NCBI RefSeq assembly: GCF_039533965.1
Contig: NZ_BAAAUN010000001.1
Location: 2,640,950-2,704,949, forward strand
DNA length: 64,000 bases
Reading direction: 5' to 3'
Origin: Microbacterium luteolum
GTDB taxonomy: Bacteria > Actinomycetota > Actinomycetes > Actinomycetales > Microbacteriaceae
The position numbers and the translations under genes are program-made. The notes beneath the pieces are model-generated. The model saw only the letters and a list, made by a program, of their open reading frames with translations, did not search any database and was not told the DNA's origin. Positions 55,146 to 60,906 of this stretch are shown here, piece after piece. Every line of letters starts with the position of its first letter. The first letter of the stretch is position 1.

Positions 55146-56228
55146 ATGGCCGGCCCGATCCTCAGCGATCGCGCTCTGAACAGGGCGCTGCTCGCGCGGC
55201 AGCTGCTCCTCGAGCGCGGCGCCCTCTCGCCTGTCGACACCGTGCGGCACCTGGTCGGCATGCAGGGCCAGGCACCGCTGGCGCCGTACGTCGGCCTGTG
55301 GTCCCGGCTCGTGGACTTCGCGCCGGCGGAACTCTCGACGGCGATCGAGGATCGGACACTCGTGCGGGCGACGCTCATGCGCGGAACCGTGCACCTGGTG
55401 ACGAGGGACGACGGACTGCAGCTGCGTCCGCTCACGGAGCCGGCGATCGTCCGAGGCTTCCGGGGCGGGTTCCGCAGGCTGATCACGGCGGAGCAGGAGG
55501 CGGAGGTGACAGCGTGGGGGCGCGAGCTGCTGACCGAGCGGCCGCGCACCCGCGTGGAGCTTCGGGGCCTGTTCCGGGACCGCTGGCCGGAGATCGACGC
55601 GGATGCCATGGCCTACGCGGTCAGCTACCTGCTGCCGACCGTCCAGCCGACGCCGCGCGGGCTGTGGGGTATGCCGCAGGGGCAGGCGCGACTCGCCCTG
55701 CTGGACTCCTGGATCGGGCGTCCCCTCGACGATGCTCCGTCGATCGACGGCGTCGTGCTCCGCTACCTGGCCGCGTTCGGGCCGGCGACCGTGAACGACG
55801 CGCAGGCCTGGTCGGGTCTGACGGGACTGCGTGAGGTGTTCGATCGGCTCGCGCCGCAGTTGACGATCTTCACCTCGGAGAAGGGGCAGGTGCTCTACGA
55901 CCTGCCCGAGGCGCCGCGCCCCGACGCGGAGCATCCGGTTCCGCCGCGATTCCTGCCGGAGTACGACAACGTCCTCTTCTCGCATCGCGACCGCCGACGC
56001 ATCATCGACTCGACTCACCGCGTGCCGCTGCCCCCAGGGGTGGGCGCGCGTTCCGGCAATTTCCTGAGCGACGGGTACTTCCGCGGCACGTGGAGCCTCG
56101 AGGGAGACTCGCTGTGCATCCGACCCCACGGGGAGCTCGGCGACGCGGCATCCGCCCTCGTCGAGGAGGGGGAGAGGTTGGCCGCGTTCCTCGGGGTCTC
56201 CGGCGCCGAGATCGCTCCGGTCGGCTGA
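55146..56228 (+). CDS. winged helix DNA-binding protein, HTH_42 (AlkX/YcaQ-like) family
   Basis: 360 aa. The N-terminus LSDRALNRALLARQLLLERG and the segment VRHLVGMQGQAPLAPYVGLWSRL are the hallmarks of the HTH_42 superfamily. They include a Q-x-Q pair at residues 40-42 like that used by AlkZ/YcaQ DNA glycosylases. Later parts (LWGMPQGQARLALLDSW, LPEYDNVLFSHRDRRRI) also fit. Some relatives unhook crosslinked bases, but most members are uncharacterised. It is co-transcribed with the epoxide hydrolase. Confidence 0.85.
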   Translation: MAGPILSDRALNRALLARQLLLERGALSPVDTVRHLVGMQGQAPLAPYVGLWSRLVDFAPAELSTAIEDRTLVRATLMRGTVHLVTRDDGLQLRPLTEPAIVRGFRGGFRRLITAEQEAEVTAWGRELLTERPRTRVELRGLFRDRWPEIDADAMAYAVSYLLPTVQPTPRGLWGMPQGQARLALLDSWIGRPLDDAPSIDGVVLRYLAAFGPATVNDAQAWSGLTGLREVFDRLAPQLTIFTSEKGQVLYDLPEAPRPDAEHPVPPRFLPEYDNVLFSHRDRRRIIDSTHRVPLPPGVGARSGNFLSDGYFRGTWSLEGDSLCIRPHGELGDAASALVEEGERLAAFLGVSGAEIAPVG

Positions 56229-56273
56229 CGTCACGGATTCGGCTGCGCGCCGGCGGAGCGCGGGCGCGCAGGA

Positions 56274-56301
56274 TGCCCCGTGGGCGCGAACCCACGGGGC
56301 A
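56274..56301 (+). terminator. hairpin after the HTH_42 gene
   Basis: TGCCCCGTGGG / CCCACGGGGCA, 11 bp, loop CGCGAA, 45 bp past the stop. It is followed by a C-run rather than T-run. Confidence 0.6.
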
Positions 56302-56365
56302 CCCCCTTGCGTCCGCGTCACGCGCGGTCGGACCGAGATCCGCCCGTCACGCGACGCAGGACGCA

Positions 56366-56408
56366 CCGGCGGTGCGGGTCTCCTCCCCGAGGACGGCCGC
56401 ACCGCCGG
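56366..56408. terminator. second hairpin in the convergent gap
   Basis: CCGGCGGTGCGG (56366-56377) and CCGCACCGCCGG (56397-56408) are perfect 12-bp arms with a 19-nt loop. It lies 8 bp beyond the stop of the chaplin-like gene on the minus strand. Confidence 0.6.
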
Positions 56409-56416
56409 CGTCTGGG

Positions 56417-57922
56417 CTACGCCGTCGTGCGACGGCGGAGCAGCCCTGCGCCTCCGATGAGGAGCAGGAGTGCGGCGAGTGCGACCAGACCGGAGGCGGC
56501 GGCGCCGCCGGTCATGGCGAGGCCCTCCGCTGCGCCGGATGCCGAAGCGGCAGCGGCCGCTCCGGAGGCCGAACCCGTTCCCGGAGTCGTGCCCGGACCG
56601 GTACCGGGATCGGTGCCCGGGTCTGTTCCCGGATCCGTTCCCGGATCCGTTCCCGGGTCGGTTCCCGGATCAGTCCCCGGGTCCGTTCCGGGGTTCGTCC
56701 CGGGCCCGGTGACGGTGCTCTCGCCGAGCACCGCGATGGCGTTGCCGCCGACCGTGATCGGGATGCTCACCGGGAGCACGACCTGGCTGCCGCCGAGGAG
56801 TCCTCCCAACCCCGACGTGTCGATCCCGCCGACGGCAGGAACCGACGGTGCCGGTGCTGCGCCCGCTCCGCCGGTCACCGTGCTGGTGCCGAGGACCGAA
56901 ATCGCGTTGCCGAGCACGGAGATCGGTGCCGTGACGGGTGCCACGACCTGGCTGCCGCCGGCTAGCGAGTCATCCCCGCCCGTCGACACGTCACCGCCGG
57001 ATGCCGGTGCCGGTGCTGCGCCCGTTCCGCCGGTCACCGTGCTGGTGCCGAGGACCGAGATCGCGTTGCCGAGCACGGAGACCGGTGCCGTGACGGGTGC
57101 CACCACCTGGGTGCCGCCGAGGATCGAATCGTCTCCCGACGTCGTCGCCGGCGTTCCGGGTGCGGAGGCCGGCGCGGGTGCGCCTGCCGGGGAGCCGGAT
57201 GCCGAGCTGGTGCCGAGCACGGACACGGCGTTGCCGCCGACCGTGATCGGTGCCGTCACCGGGGCCACGACCTGGGTGCCGCTGCCCACGGCATCCGTTC
57301 CGTTCGTCTCCGCGGAGGCCGGCGAGGCGGCGGCAGGGGCCGGTGCTGCGGCTCCCTGCGACTGCGCGTCGCTTTCACCGAGGACCGAGACGGCGTTGCC
57401 CGAGACGGTGATCGGGGCGTCGACCTGCAGCAGCGCCTGCGTACCCGAGAGCACGCCGTCGATGCCGCTGGTCGTCACGGACGGCACCCCGGCGGCGGGA
57501 GGCGAGGCCTGGGGAGCCTCATCCTGGGATGCCGGAGCCGGGGCGCTGGTCGAGGAGGTGCCGAGAAGGCTCACCGCGTTGTCCGTCACGGTGACGGGTA
57601 CGGTGACGGTCACCACGGCCTGGGAGCCGGATGCCGCGCCCGAGTCGCCGCTCGTCTCCGCCACGGGCGCGGGGGCAGGGGCTGGAGGCGGGGTCTCGGC
57701 GACGGGTGCCGGAGCGGGTGCCTCGGCGGTGGAGGTGCCGAGCACCGAGATCGCGTTGTCGACGATCGTGATCGGCGCGGTGACCGTGGCCACCGCCTGA
57801 GTGCCGGAGAGAAGGCTGTCGTCCCCGGATGTCTCGGCCGCGTTGGCGACCGTCGCGCCGAAGAGCGTGATGCCCCCGGCGATGAGCGTGCCCCACAGGG
57901 CCCGCTTCAGATAAGTACGCAT
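56417..57922 (-). CDS. chaplin-like surface protein with seven repeats and LAMTG sorting signal
   Basis: 501 aa. A signal peptide (residues 1-29) is followed by seven Cys-free repeats starting near residues 32, 91, 153, 207, 263, 317 and 371. Each has the form G(T/S)Q(A/V)V..V..P(I/V)(T/S)V..NA(I/V)SVLG, matching the chaplin hydrophobic domain (pattern V.VP.NVCGN.V.VIG without the Cys). Ala/Pro linkers separate them. An 11-unit PGTD-like tract, LAMTG, a membrane helix and RRRTTA complete it. LAXTG is the class E sortase motif used by long Streptomyces chaplins. Probably a cell-wall-linked, amyloid-prone surface layer protein. ATG at 57922 has AGGAGA. Confidence 0.85.
   Translation of the reverse strand: MRTYLKRALWGTLIAGGITLFGATVANAAETSGDDSLLSGTQAVATVTAPITIVDNAISVLGTSTAEAPAPAPVAETPPPAPAPAPVAETSGDSGAASGSQAVVTVTVPVTVTDNAVSLLGTSSTSAPAPASQDEAPQASPPAAGVPSVTTSGIDGVLSGTQALLQVDAPITVSGNAVSVLGESDAQSQGAAAPAPAAASPASAETNGTDAVGSGTQVVAPVTAPITVGGNAVSVLGTSSASGSPAGAPAPASAPGTPATTSGDDSILGGTQVVAPVTAPVSVLGNAISVLGTSTVTGGTGAAPAPASGGDVSTGGDDSLAGGSQVVAPVTAPISVLGNAISVLGTSTVTGGAGAAPAPSVPAVGGIDTSGLGGLLGGSQVVLPVSIPITVGGNAIAVLGESTVTGPGTNPGTDPGTDPGTDPGTDPGTDPGTDPGTDPGTGPGTTPGTGSASGAAAAASASGAAEGLAMTGGAAASGLVALAALLLLIGGAGLLRRRTTA
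56573..56704. repeat. 12-bp tandem repeat coding PGT(D/N/G/T)
   Basis: Eleven consecutive 12-bp units, seven of them encoding PGTD. It spans the putative wall region of the chaplin-like protein and is likely to vary in copy number. Confidence 0.85.
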
Positions 57923-58025
57923 GATGATTCTCCTGACTGGACTGGGGGAGTCTGATGGGTGCGGGCGAAGTGCGCGCGCAGCACAGCATCTGCCGTCCTC
58001 GGGGTGAGGGCGGCGCGACCGTCAG

Positions 58026-59012
58026 TCAGTCAGGAGAGACGTCGGTGGCGAAGACCGGCGACGTCGGCAGGGCGTCGTCCGATGCACCGGCAGCCCGCTC
58101 CCAGGCACGGAGCGGAAACGCACCGACGTCGCTGACGCGAGCGTGGGCGCTGTGAGAACCTCCGCCGGAACCGGCGAAGGAAGAAGGCGTGCCAGGACCC
58201 CCTGGCGGGGCGCCGGAGGACGGCCCGGAGGGCGCGTCCGACGCCCCGCGCTCGCTCACAGTGCCCCTGGGGATGGTAGCGGGGACTACGGGCGAAGCGG
58301 AGGCGAGCGCGGGGGTCGTGGCCTGGAGGAAGAGTGCGGATGCCGTCGCCGAGGCGAGCTGCGCAGCAGAACTCGTGCCGGGTGTGCCGGGCACGAGCGG
58401 CACCGATGCTGTCGGGTCGAGAGGTTCCAGGATCGGCGGCAGCGTCTCCCCGCCCACCTCGCCGATCACGCCGGTCGCGCCGTCGACCACTCCGATGACG
58501 TCGCGGACCAGGTCGGCGGCGCCGAGTTCGTCGACGAGATCTCCGAGGATCGGGAGACCGGTGACGGCATCGAGGATCGGGTCGGTGACGTGTGCGACGG
58601 GGGAGTGCGTGAGAGCGTCGGTCACCGGTGCGACCACGCCCTCGGCGGTCTGCGATACCGCCTCGACGATCGGAGCGGCGACGGCTCCGACGATCGGCAC
58701 CTGCGTGACGGCGGTGGCGACAGTGTCGACCACGACGGGCGCCTCTTGCTGCACGGGCGCGATCACGGCCGTGACGGCCGGGGCGACCACCTGCGTCACG
58801 ACGGGTGCGACGACGTCGGAGACGACCGGTGTCGTGACGGCGGAGACCGTCTCGCTCACGATCGAGGTGAGCCCGTCGAGGGGTCCGTCCGACTCGTCGG
58901 CGTGCGCGGAGCCTCCGCCGGCGACGACCGTCAGTGTCGCCCAGGCGAGCGCGACGAGACCGCCCCATTTGACGGCGGTGGGGATGCCGCGTCGGGTGGC
59001 CCGAACGTTCAC
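58026..59012 (-). CDS. secreted protein of unknown function beside the chaplin-like gene
   Basis: 328 aa. The signal peptide ends near GGSAHADE. Residues 48-140 repeat short Val-rich segments such as TTPVVSDVVAPVVTQVVAPAVTAVIAPV and PIVGAVAAPIVEAV. The rest is Ala/Pro/Gly/Ser-rich without membrane anchor or sorting signal. No family is recognised. GTG at 59012 has GGGGGAGG. It lies 103 bp upstream of the chaplin-like gene on the same strand, so the two may be expressed together. Confidence 0.72.
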   Translation of the reverse strand: MNVRATRRGIPTAVKWGGLVALAWATLTVVAGGGSAHADESDGPLDGLTSIVSETVSAVTTPVVSDVVAPVVTQVVAPAVTAVIAPVQQEAPVVVDTVATAVTQVPIVGAVAAPIVEAVSQTAEGVVAPVTDALTHSPVAHVTDPILDAVTGLPILGDLVDELGAADLVRDVIGVVDGATGVIGEVGGETLPPILEPLDPTASVPLVPGTPGTSSAAQLASATASALFLQATTPALASASPVVPATIPRGTVSERGASDAPSGPSSGAPPGGPGTPSSFAGSGGGSHSAHARVSDVGAFPLRAWERAAGASDDALPTSPVFATDVSPD

Positions 59013-59532
59013 GTCAACCTCCCCCTCTGAAGGCAACGCACCATCGGCACGAACGTGCTCGATGGGCTGACGATACTCGCGCTTACAGCCGTTGTCCAGG
59101 GCTATTTCGCGCAGGTCCGGAAGCTCATCGCGCGATGACGCGCCCGGCAGAATCTCGGCTTGACTTTCCCCAGGTTCTGCACATGTCGTCCCATGACGGG
59201 AAAACCTTCAATCACGCATTGAACCCGGTTCCCATCCACAGGCTGGGGAATCGAGAAAGCCCAGGTCAGCGCGATTAAGAAAACCAATATGAAAGACCGT
59301 CCACCGGGTTATCCACAACCGTTCTACACAGACACTCCGGCTTTGTCCGCAAACTCTCCACAGAGTTATCCACAGGCTGTGTTGCACCCGATTCACGCCG
59401 CTCGTAGCGTGGTCGAGCGACCGAATGTCGGGGGCTCCTGATTCGCTGTGCACAGCGGCCGGAACGGCCGGACGGACACGGCTCCGCCCCTCGGGGCGGC
59501 GCATTCGGAAACGTCGCATCGAAGGGAAAAGC
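59013..59532. other. 520 bp gap upstream of dnaB
   Basis: No convincing gene. It holds a perfect 14-bp palindrome TCATCGCGCGATGA (59125-59138), a relatively AT-rich stretch (59150-59300) and the DnaA boxes at 59309-59374. An ORF of 61 codons on the minus strand (59102-59287) has no ribosome site and odd composition. Confidence 0.7.
59309..59374. promoter_or_regulatory. DnaA box cluster upstream of dnaB
   Basis: Two perfect TTATCCACA boxes (59309-59317 and 59366-59374) lie 57 bp apart. A partial box CTCTCCACA (59354-59362) sits next to the second, and CCATCCACA lies further upstream (59232-59240). Confidence 0.7.
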
Positions 59533-60906
59533 GTGTCGATCGCGGACATCTCAGAGGAGCGCCTGGGAGGGCAGCGCCCGCCCGAGCGCACGCCTCCCCA
59601 TGACCTCCTCGCCGAGCAGAGCGCGCTGGGCGGCATGCTGCTGTCGAAAGACGCCGTCGCCGACGTGATCGAGACCCTCAAGGGCGCCGACTTCTACATC
59701 CCGAAGCACGAGTTGATCTTCGAGGCGATCCTGTCGCTGTACTCGCACGGCGAGCCGACTGATGTGGTCGCGGTCACCGACGAGCTCATCAAGACCGGCG
59801 AGCTCGGCAGGGCCGGCGGCGCCGACTACCTGCACACCCTCACCTCGATCGTCCCGACCGCAGCGAACGCCGGGTACTACGCGGGCATCGTCAACGAACG
59901 AGCCATCCTTCGTCGCCTGGTCGATGCGGGCACGCGCATCGTGCAGCTCGGATATGCCGGCGAGGGCGACGCGACCGACATCGTCAACAACGCCCAGGCC
60001 GAGATCTACTCGGTCACCGGCACCGAGACGGCCGAGGACTACGTGCCGTTGACCACGGCCGTCGACGCGGCGATCGAGGAGATCGAGGCCGCGAACGGCC
60101 GCGACGGCTCGATGACCGGCATCCCGACCGGGTTCAAGGAGCTCGACGAGCTCACCAACGGCCTCCACGGTGGCCAGATGATCGTCGTCGCGGCCCGACC
60201 CGCGATGGGCAAGTCGACGCTCGCCCTCGACTTCGCCCGCGCGGCATCCATCGGTCATGACTTCCCGTCGATCTTCTTCTCGCTCGAGATGGGCAAGAGC
60301 GAGATCGCGATGCGTCTGCTCAGCGCCGAGGGCGGGATCCCGCTGCAGAACATGCGCAAGGGAACGCTCGACCCGCGCGACTGGACCACCGTCGCCGCGA
60401 CCCGAGGTCGCATCAACGACGCGCCCCTCTACATCGACGACAGCCCCAACATGACGCTCGTCGAGATCCGTGCCAAGTGCCGTCGACTCAAGCAGCGCGA
60501 GGGTCTGCGCATGGTCATCATCGACTATCTGCAGCTCATGACGTCGGGCAAGCGCGTCGAGTCGCGTCAGCAGGAGGTCTCCGAGTTCTCGCGAAGCCTC
60601 AAGCTCATCGCCAAGGAGCTGCAGGTCCCCGTCATCGCCCTGTCGCAACTGAACCGTGGTCCCGAGCAGCGGCAGGACAAGAAGCCCGCGATCAGTGACC
60701 TGCGTGAGTCCGGCTCGATCGAGCAGGATGCCGACATGGTCATCCTGCTCCACCGCGATTCCGTCTACGACAAGGACGTGCGTCCGGGCGAGGCAGACCT
60801 CATCGTCGCCAAGCACCGTAACGGCCCGACCGCCACGATCACGGTCGCGTTCCAGGGTCACTACTCGCGCTTCAAGGACATGGCCCCGGGCGGCGACTTC
60901 AACTGA
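59533..60906 (+). CDS. dnaB: replicative DNA helicase DnaB
   Basis: 457 aa, no intein. The N-terminal domain (PPHDLLAEQSALGGMLLSKDAVADVIE) precedes the RecA-like core with Walker A ARPAMGKSTLA, Walker B MVIIDYLQLM, and ISDLRESGSIEQDADMVILLHR. It unwinds DNA at the fork. GTG at 59533 follows GAAGGGAAAA. Confidence 0.97.
   Translation: MSIADISEERLGGQRPPERTPPHDLLAEQSALGGMLLSKDAVADVIETLKGADFYIPKHELIFEAILSLYSHGEPTDVVAVTDELIKTGELGRAGGADYLHTLTSIVPTAANAGYYAGIVNERAILRRLVDAGTRIVQLGYAGEGDATDIVNNAQAEIYSVTGTETAEDYVPLTTAVDAAIEEIEAANGRDGSMTGIPTGFKELDELTNGLHGGQMIVVAARPAMGKSTLALDFARAASIGHDFPSIFFSLEMGKSEIAMRLLSAEGGIPLQNMRKGTLDPRDWTTVAATRGRINDAPLYIDDSPNMTLVEIRAKCRRLKQREGLRMVIIDYLQLMTSGKRVESRQQEVSEFSRSLKLIAKELQVPVIALSQLNRGPEQRQDKKPAISDLRESGSIEQDADMVILLHRDSVYDKDVRPGEADLIVAKHRNGPTATITVAFQGHYSRFKDMAPGGDFN

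Follow-up and report, generated by a model that had tools for sequence, protein, structure and literature searches.

A chaplin-related, seven-repeat protein of Microbacterium luteolum, its predicted secreted partner and an RNA pairing between their genes

A repeat protein and its upstream partner

The stretch analyzed here (the window; 64,000 nucleotides (nt) of Microbacterium luteolum contig NZ_BAAAUN010000001.1, positions 2,640,950 to 2,704,949) carries a gene for a chaplin-related, seven-repeat protein with a predicted wall anchor and, upstream of it on the same strand, an unannotated gene for a predicted secreted protein that we call the partner. Features are on the minus strand unless stated otherwise. 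The chaplin-related gene (56417..57922) has an ATG start, with aggaga a few bases 5′ of it, and encodes 501 residues. Residues 1–29 (MRTYLKRALWG...VANAA; 57836..57922), with a helix at residues 2–21, were judged by eye to be a signal peptide. Seven 24-residue repeat cores follow, at residues 39–62 (57737..57808), 98–121 (57560..57631), 159–182 (57377..57448), 214–237 (57212..57283), 269–292 (57047..57118), 322–345 (56888..56959) and 377–400 (56723..56794). Their mean pairwise identity is 66% (range 50–92%), each holds at most one charged residue, and their grand average of hydropathy (GRAVY) is 0.73 to 1.30; about 30 residues of linker, rich in Pro, Ala, Ser and Thr, lie between successive cores. 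From residue 407, 11 PGT[D/N/G/T] units stand back to back in a (PGTD)n tract (residues 407–450; 56573..56704) that presumably spans the wall, and the protein ends in a sorting signal made of LAMTG (residue 468), a hydrophobic stretch and RRR (56420..56521). It contains 0 Cys residues. A first-pass annotation of this DNA had described seven Cys-free repeats, a PGTD tract and LAMTG, and our reading of the open reading frame bears out that description.

That annotation had also called the protein chaplin-like and proposed a profile comparison as a check. The Pfam profile PF03777 (ChpA-C) matched the repeat protein in seven stretches with 46.2 bits, against a cutoff of 21, and the repeat-protein gene was the one place listed when the source genome was searched with it. 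From NCBIfam, only the sorting-signal domain NF058582 matched, at 19.1 bits, short of the cutoff of 27. A sortase-family search of the source genome gave a single match, a class E sortase (232.3 bits, cutoff 160), whose gene lies about 38 kb below the first base of the window. We conclude that the protein is very probably chaplin-related and wall-anchored, with cleavage predicted at LAMTG. The matches of the repeat protein to Protein Data Bank (PDB) sequences were circumsporozoite proteins, aligned through the PGTD-like tract only (residues 406–450), and were set aside; a two-Cys relative, P0051, had no match to PDB sequences at E ≤ 1.

The partner gene (58026..59012) has a GTG start and a likely ribosome-binding site, picked by eye (gggggagg, 59018..59025). 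Its 328-residue product opens with a signal-peptide-like segment, continues through a V/A/P/T-rich middle and a Ser/Pro linker, and ends in ...DDALPTSPVFATDVSPD, the final TDVSPD and stop being encoded at 58026..58046. The partner stop lies 103 nt from the start of the chaplin-related gene. In a scan of 56200-59600, the sole promoter-like site was a weak one 5′ of the partner (59070..59098, 9 of 12 consensus bases), and none was found between the two genes. The partner had no family match in Pfam at E ≤ 0.1 or in NCBIfam at E ≤ 0.01.

RNA pairing between the two genes

The end of the partner gene and the start signal of the chaplin-related gene are complementary. The sequence TCTCCTGACTG (58027..58037), which covers the last codons and stop of the partner, is exactly complementary over 11 base pairs to CAGTCAGGAGA (57929..57939), which covers the Shine–Dalgarno (SD) sequence of the chaplin-related gene. 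An inner hairpin, GCCGCCCTC...GAGGACGGC (57992..58014), lies between these two arms.

We compared the pairing energies of stop regions and leaders at 64 loci; L046, L101 and L109, for which the scripts did not find the partner or the start, are omitted from this test. Stop regions paired with their own leader at a mean of −20.2 kcal/mol, as against −14.5 kcal/mol with the leaders of other loci, and 0 of 5000 permutations reached the cognate mean. Shuffled stop regions and a control segment taken from further upstream both gave −9.9 kcal/mol. When each genus was represented by a single locus (26 genera, drawn from 63 loci, L108 being left out because its start was misread), the cognate mean was −20.36 kcal/mol compared to −14.29 kcal/mol when permuted, and 0 of 40000 permutations were as low. 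Pairing of the segment from the stop codon onward with the leader 5′ of the SD gave −13.99 compared to −11.99 kcal/mol (7 of 40000). The mean number of expected pairs between stop region and leader was 16.0, against 4.7 for shuffled sequences, with low values at L100 (4.9) and L121 (8.5). Equivalent pairs are built from different bases at different loci: in the minimum-energy fold of each sequence, for example, the first base after the stop codon pairs as C-G at 11 loci, G-C at 18 and U-A at 16.

Alignment data agreed with these energies. Across 38 aligned sequences, 81.4% of cells pair, compared to 73.2% after shuffling. The covariation score was 0.252, against 0.128 for shuffled alignments (0 of 500) and at most 0.093 when the structure was slid along the alignment, a control in which the structure, taken from the window itself, favors itself. 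Compensatory changes were seen at five of the five predicted pairs of the inner hairpin, and the fold of the window stretch had a z-score of −4.40. RNAalifold, run on a MAFFT alignment, recovered the inner hairpin only; it missed the closing helix because the 3′ arm is spread over gap columns, and the helix was therefore tested through the cognate and non-cognate energies and the explicit window structure. When window positions 57700-58200 were searched against Rfam, no match reached its gathering score, and the sole hit at E ≤ 1 was L4-Archaeoglobi on the opposite strand (20.7 bits, cutoff 34.5). Taken together, these comparisons indicate that the RNA pairing is very likely real. The placement of the stop region in one arm and of the next gene's SD in the other, together with their coevolution, suggests translational coupling, and from this layout we consider a coupler the probable function of the pairing.

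Conservation of the partner

Among 102 partner homologues, those that were named belonged to Microbacterium, except one filed as Zhihengliuella, and 99 ended in PD. For comparison at the level of loci, we fetched 20 of the 66 other Microbacterium matches, taken from the best-scoring with room on the contig, and 40 of the 43 matches from other genera of the family (not G149, G264 and G290). The partner lay upstream on the chaplin-gene strand, with rplI and dnaB nearby, in 20 of 20 Microbacterium loci. A script found it in 58 of the 60 Microbacteriaceae loci, and both misses (L046 and L101) have it when read. It was also present in all six loci of two further families (f6 and f18, three loci each), which are perhaps Micrococcaceae and Intrasporangiaceae. 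In all, the 66 other Micrococcales-type chaplin loci verified carry the partner, which ends in SPD or TPD at 59 of them, in APD, TPG and RPD at two each and in RPG at one. Since rplI and dnaB were found in none of the 40 other-genus loci (7–12 kb fetched) and the partner was present nonetheless, the chaplin–partner pair is retained outside this neighborhood as well. The 60 loci hold 3435 frames of 120 codons or more, 64 of which end in [STA]PD, so that nearly all such ends are partners.

The association also held across whole genomes. The exact tail pattern occurred in 71 of 119 Microbacterium genomes (reversed-pattern control: 2); 58 genomes had both this tail and a PF03777 match, 9 had PF03777 alone, 13 the tail alone and 39 neither (Fisher 6.6e-12, with genomes treated as independent of kinship). 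Further afield, in family f35, where loci from 7 of 20 genomes were fetched, the partner ends in ADDPSFSPD at six of the seven loci. Among the 120 relatives of this partner listed of 298 found, which include proteins named from Microbispora, Planotetraspora and Streptosporangium, 119 end in SPD. Beyond the partner of the Microbispora-type locus L191 lies an M20 peptidase gene, and similar frame ends are seen in L192, L193, L194 and L197. The Streptomyces-like locus L196 likewise has an M20 peptidase near its long chaplin, with no partner seen, and this common neighbor is a hint that the Microbispora-like and Streptomyces-like loci are orthologous.

Some Microbacterium partners, as noted from L041, L042, L046, L048 and L051, have a hydrophobic segment and a RAW-type basic stretch before the tail, an arrangement that could place the tail inside the cell; in others the hydrophobic segment is eroded.

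Exchange of the repeat

Eight Microbacterium genomes had the tail and no match at E ≤ 1e-40 to A1, a 37-row profile, and all eight were fetched. At five of these loci (L198, L199, L200, L201 and L203), the gene behind the partner encodes a protein that has a similar signal peptide, a PTDP tract and either LATTG or LAATG, but an acidic, different repeat where the chaplin repeats would stand; judged by eye, this repeat appears unrelated to chaplins. The stop/SD duplexes of the five loci range from −16.4 to −21.6 kcal/mol. Of the remaining three genomes, two have a partner without an evident coat gene and one was a chance match. This exchange suggests that the outer repeat may be swapped with the signal peptide, the partner, the pairing and the wall anchor all retained.

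In L202 (G021) and L204 (G041), a partner with the TDVSPD tail has no evident coat gene behind it. At L204, pairing is retained nonetheless (−21.6 kcal/mol), between the stop region and sequence ahead of a possible start.

Relatives and known coat proteins

The relatives were examined as a set of 121 proteins, the window protein plus 120 listed of 227 found. One hundred have Cys-free repeats only, 11 have mostly two-Cys repeats, one is mixed and nine were unmatched by the expression used. Several are already named 'chaplin family protein' in their source records, and names among those listed include Mycetocola, Agromyces, Herbiconiux, Labedella, Terrabacter, Phycicoccus, Pseudarthrobacter and Paenarthrobacter. 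The named two-Cys proteins (7 of the 11) are from Nonomuraea, Microbispora or Spongiactinospora, and the two-Cys proteins listed have no LAxTG within their last 70 residues. The first-pass annotation had presented the combination of many repeats, no Cys and LAxTG as unusual. This part of its account did not hold, since 100 of 121 proteins with Cys-free repeats only make these marks a description of the group. Its interpretation as a chaplin-like surface coat gains from the profile similarity, the wall-sorting signal and the class E sortase, and is plausible, even as it rests on features typical of the group. At E ≤ 0.001, PF03777 matched 67 of 119 Microbacterium genomes, 45 of 199 genomes of the family (25 of 85 genera), 18 of 248 of the order and 52 of 246 of the class, these samples being overlapping.

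In Streptomyces, chaplins are known for forming the coat that allows hyphae to grow into the air; Microbacterium is a non-filamentous genus. Compared by eye with L196, a Streptomyces-like long chaplin, the core aligns in gap-free register (SGNSVQAPINVPVNICGNTVDIIG and SGTQVVAPVTAPITVGGNAVSVLG), following SGxxVxxPVxxPVxVxGNxVxVxG as in Streptomyces ChpA-C, with which the protein also shares a signal peptide, a LAXTG-type signal and a genome-encoded class E sortase. Where chaplins have their first Cys, the seven cores show V, T, S, G or L; the third GN segment and the second Cys are absent, with the Pro/Ala/Ser/Thr linker in their place. The first GN motif is GT or GS, and the second is GN in five cores and DN in two. 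Long chaplins have two domains, each with three GN motifs and two Cys, as set out in parts of PMC13251363. Streptomyces-type domains in general carry two Cys, with ChpE and the C-terminal domain of ChpB as exceptions, and three GN motifs spaced 12–13 residues apart, whereas here there are seven repeats, no Cys, no third GN motif, a PGTD tract and an upstream partner. Given the missing Cys and GN motifs, we class it as a repeat protein that is chaplin-related and PF03777-positive but falls outside the canonical chaplins.

The multi-repeat chaplins of Streptosporangiaceae (Nonomuraea, Microbispora and Spongiactinospora, all filamentous) are alike in having several repeats and an upstream partner ending in SPD (6 of 7 fetched loci). 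They differ in that most of their repeats have two Cys, the partner is shorter and of different sequence, and the gap between the genes is 204–241 nt with the SD unpaired. Within the text of PMC4255298 that we drew on, chaplin types are described, attachment is suggested as an earlier role of chaplins, a chaplin-like protein is noted in the non-sporulating Arthrobacter chlorophenolicus, and the rodlins RdlA/B of Streptomyces are secreted proteins that help chaplins form paired rodlets. The partner may be likened to rodlins by description, not by sequence, as a predicted secreted protein that accompanies a chaplin-related one; unlike them, it adjoins the coat gene, and it has no Pfam or NCBIfam family match. 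In Actinoplanes missouriensis, CwpA/CwpB are hydrophobic proteins anchored by the class E sortase SrtE, with no chaplin domains according to the portions of PMC13251363 used here; they resemble our protein in hydrophobicity and in class E sortase anchoring, predicted in our case, and differ from it in that the chaplin profile is matched here. Curli CsgA/CsgB offer an analogy only, that of a repeat subunit with a second secreted protein, and the CsgA that stood in the first row when the predicted model of the repeat protein was run through VIA-align is to be read in the same way.

Discussion

As far as the sequences go, we see chaplin-related repeats with a sorting signal, a class E sortase in the genome, signal-peptide-like starts on both proteins, a gene pair kept across settings, and complementary stop and start signals with compensatory changes between species. 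Our preferred reading is that the repeat protein is the second gene of a two-gene wall-coat module, to which we give a probability of roughly 0.5. A single transcript would carry partner and chaplin-related gene, and a ribosome finishing the partner would open the helix, so that the coat protein would be made mainly alongside the partner. The class E sortase would then link the repeat protein to the wall, which the PGTD tract would span, and the hydrophobic, beta-rich repeats would associate into a hydrophobic or adhesive layer. Such a layer, suggested by homology, has odds that we put slightly short of even. The partner would stay soluble and probably help the repeats to assemble; a role as assembly factor, to which gene order and tail conservation point, is put forward tentatively. 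A wider reading is that this is an unnamed two-component coat of actinobacteria, made of an anchored protein with exchangeable repeats and a dedicated secreted partner with a free (S/T)PD recognition tail, their order and ratio fixed by the helix, and that it predates or parallels the chaplin/rodlin sheath of Streptomyces and serves cells without aerial hyphae; we regard this as speculative and rather unlikely.

Several observations set limits to this picture. In f35, the SD was unpaired at the six loci folded, and one locus, L195, showed no partner; the Microbispora-type (L191) partner was found in 8 of the 20 f35 genomes. The same partner as query found nothing in 21 Streptomyces-like (f37) genomes or in the one f26 genome, where a diverged partner could escape, and none of 363 frames in the 21 Streptomyces-like chaplin loci of about 3 kb ended in [STRA]PD. 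The tail match of G024 had no partner frame. The exact tail pattern occurred in 9 of 199 family genomes (reversed-pattern control: 2): two of these are Microbacterium, three matches lie at a chaplin (G259, G272 and G296), and four lie in genomes without a PF03777 match and are probably due to chance, other genera using other tails. When the threshold for profile A1 was tightened from E ≤ 0.001 to E ≤ 1e-40, the number of Microbacterium genomes matched fell from 107 to 72 of 119, many of the weak matches probably coming from sorting signals or low complexity. PF03777 matches above cutoff also fell in non-chaplin frames in three of nine order-level genomes outside the family (L183, L185 and L189); six-frame scans of GC-rich DNA can thus yield spurious matches to this profile, and the genome tallies given above may hold false ones. 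These misfires would favor the view that the chaplin match itself is a low-complexity artefact. We rejected this view on a score of 46.2 bits over a cutoff of 21; the match covers seven stretches, the cores stand in gap-free register with a Streptomyces-like domain, and relatives share the signal peptide, repeats and sorting signal, which leaves an artefact highly improbable.

The partner tail might instead be a mere coding echo of the RNA element, the helix regulating the coat gene and the partner protein having no role in the coat. The last codons do favor the pairing bases, the last Pro codon of the partner being CCT at 40 of the 64 loci, CCC at 24 and CCG, the commonest Pro codon elsewhere in the frames, at none, and outside the tail the partners differ widely, with identities as low as 27% in a 37-row alignment. 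However, the LPxSP motif upstream of the helix, found in 40 of 58 partners, is kept as protein with free Pro codons (CCG in 28 and 20 of 40), which suggests that the constraint acts at the RNA level on the tail and at the protein level on the part before it. ADDPSFSPD, moreover, ends 110 of the 120 listed f35-type homologues, for which the folded loci showed no SD pairing, and signal-peptide-like starts are kept in nearly all partner sequences read; we judge a coding echo unlikely. That the helix is an RNA-processing or mRNA-stability element and no coupler is less probable still. It is long and GC-rich, with inner hairpins, and long GC-rich helices can be cleaved by RNases, but in 26 genera one strand of the pairing comes from the upstream stop region and the other from the leader with the SD, an arrangement that coupling would predict. 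More serious is the possibility, still short of an even chance, that the repeat protein acts as a common wall spacer or adhesin and forms neither amyloid nor a hydrophobic film. Both chaplin cysteines, important in ChpH according to parts of PMC5618241, are absent along with the third GN segment, the linkers between the cores are rich in Pro and Ala, and at five loci a different, acidic repeat stands in its place. The cores, on the other hand, are hydrophobic and nearly uncharged, and the same parts of PMC5618241 describe ChpE as lacking Cys and individual short chaplins as forming fibrils.

What is more unusual about the locus than the repeat protein itself is the partner together with the coevolving RNA pairing, neither of which the first-pass annotation had noted. 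A survey of open-licence PMC articles, by titles and abstract openings, found, among those listed, no article on the partner, on the coupling or on multi-repeat chaplins without Cys in Micrococcales. Chaplin relatives in bacteria without aerial hyphae raise the question of the original purpose of the coat. The conserved partner can be named as a specific candidate assembly factor, and the helix, which coevolves, as a control step open to direct testing, while the exchange of repeats suggests a reusable cassette for surface display. Knowledge of the gene pair would also aid the annotation of many genes that now carry the labels hypothetical or chaplin family.

Neighboring sequence motifs

Between the partner and dnaB, the plus strand of the window carries two exact copies of TTATCCACA, at 59309-59317 and 59366-59374, which we take to be the DnaA-box consensus. 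In 19 of the 20 Microbacterium loci, the 800 nt upstream of the dnaB match hold one or more exact copies in this orientation.
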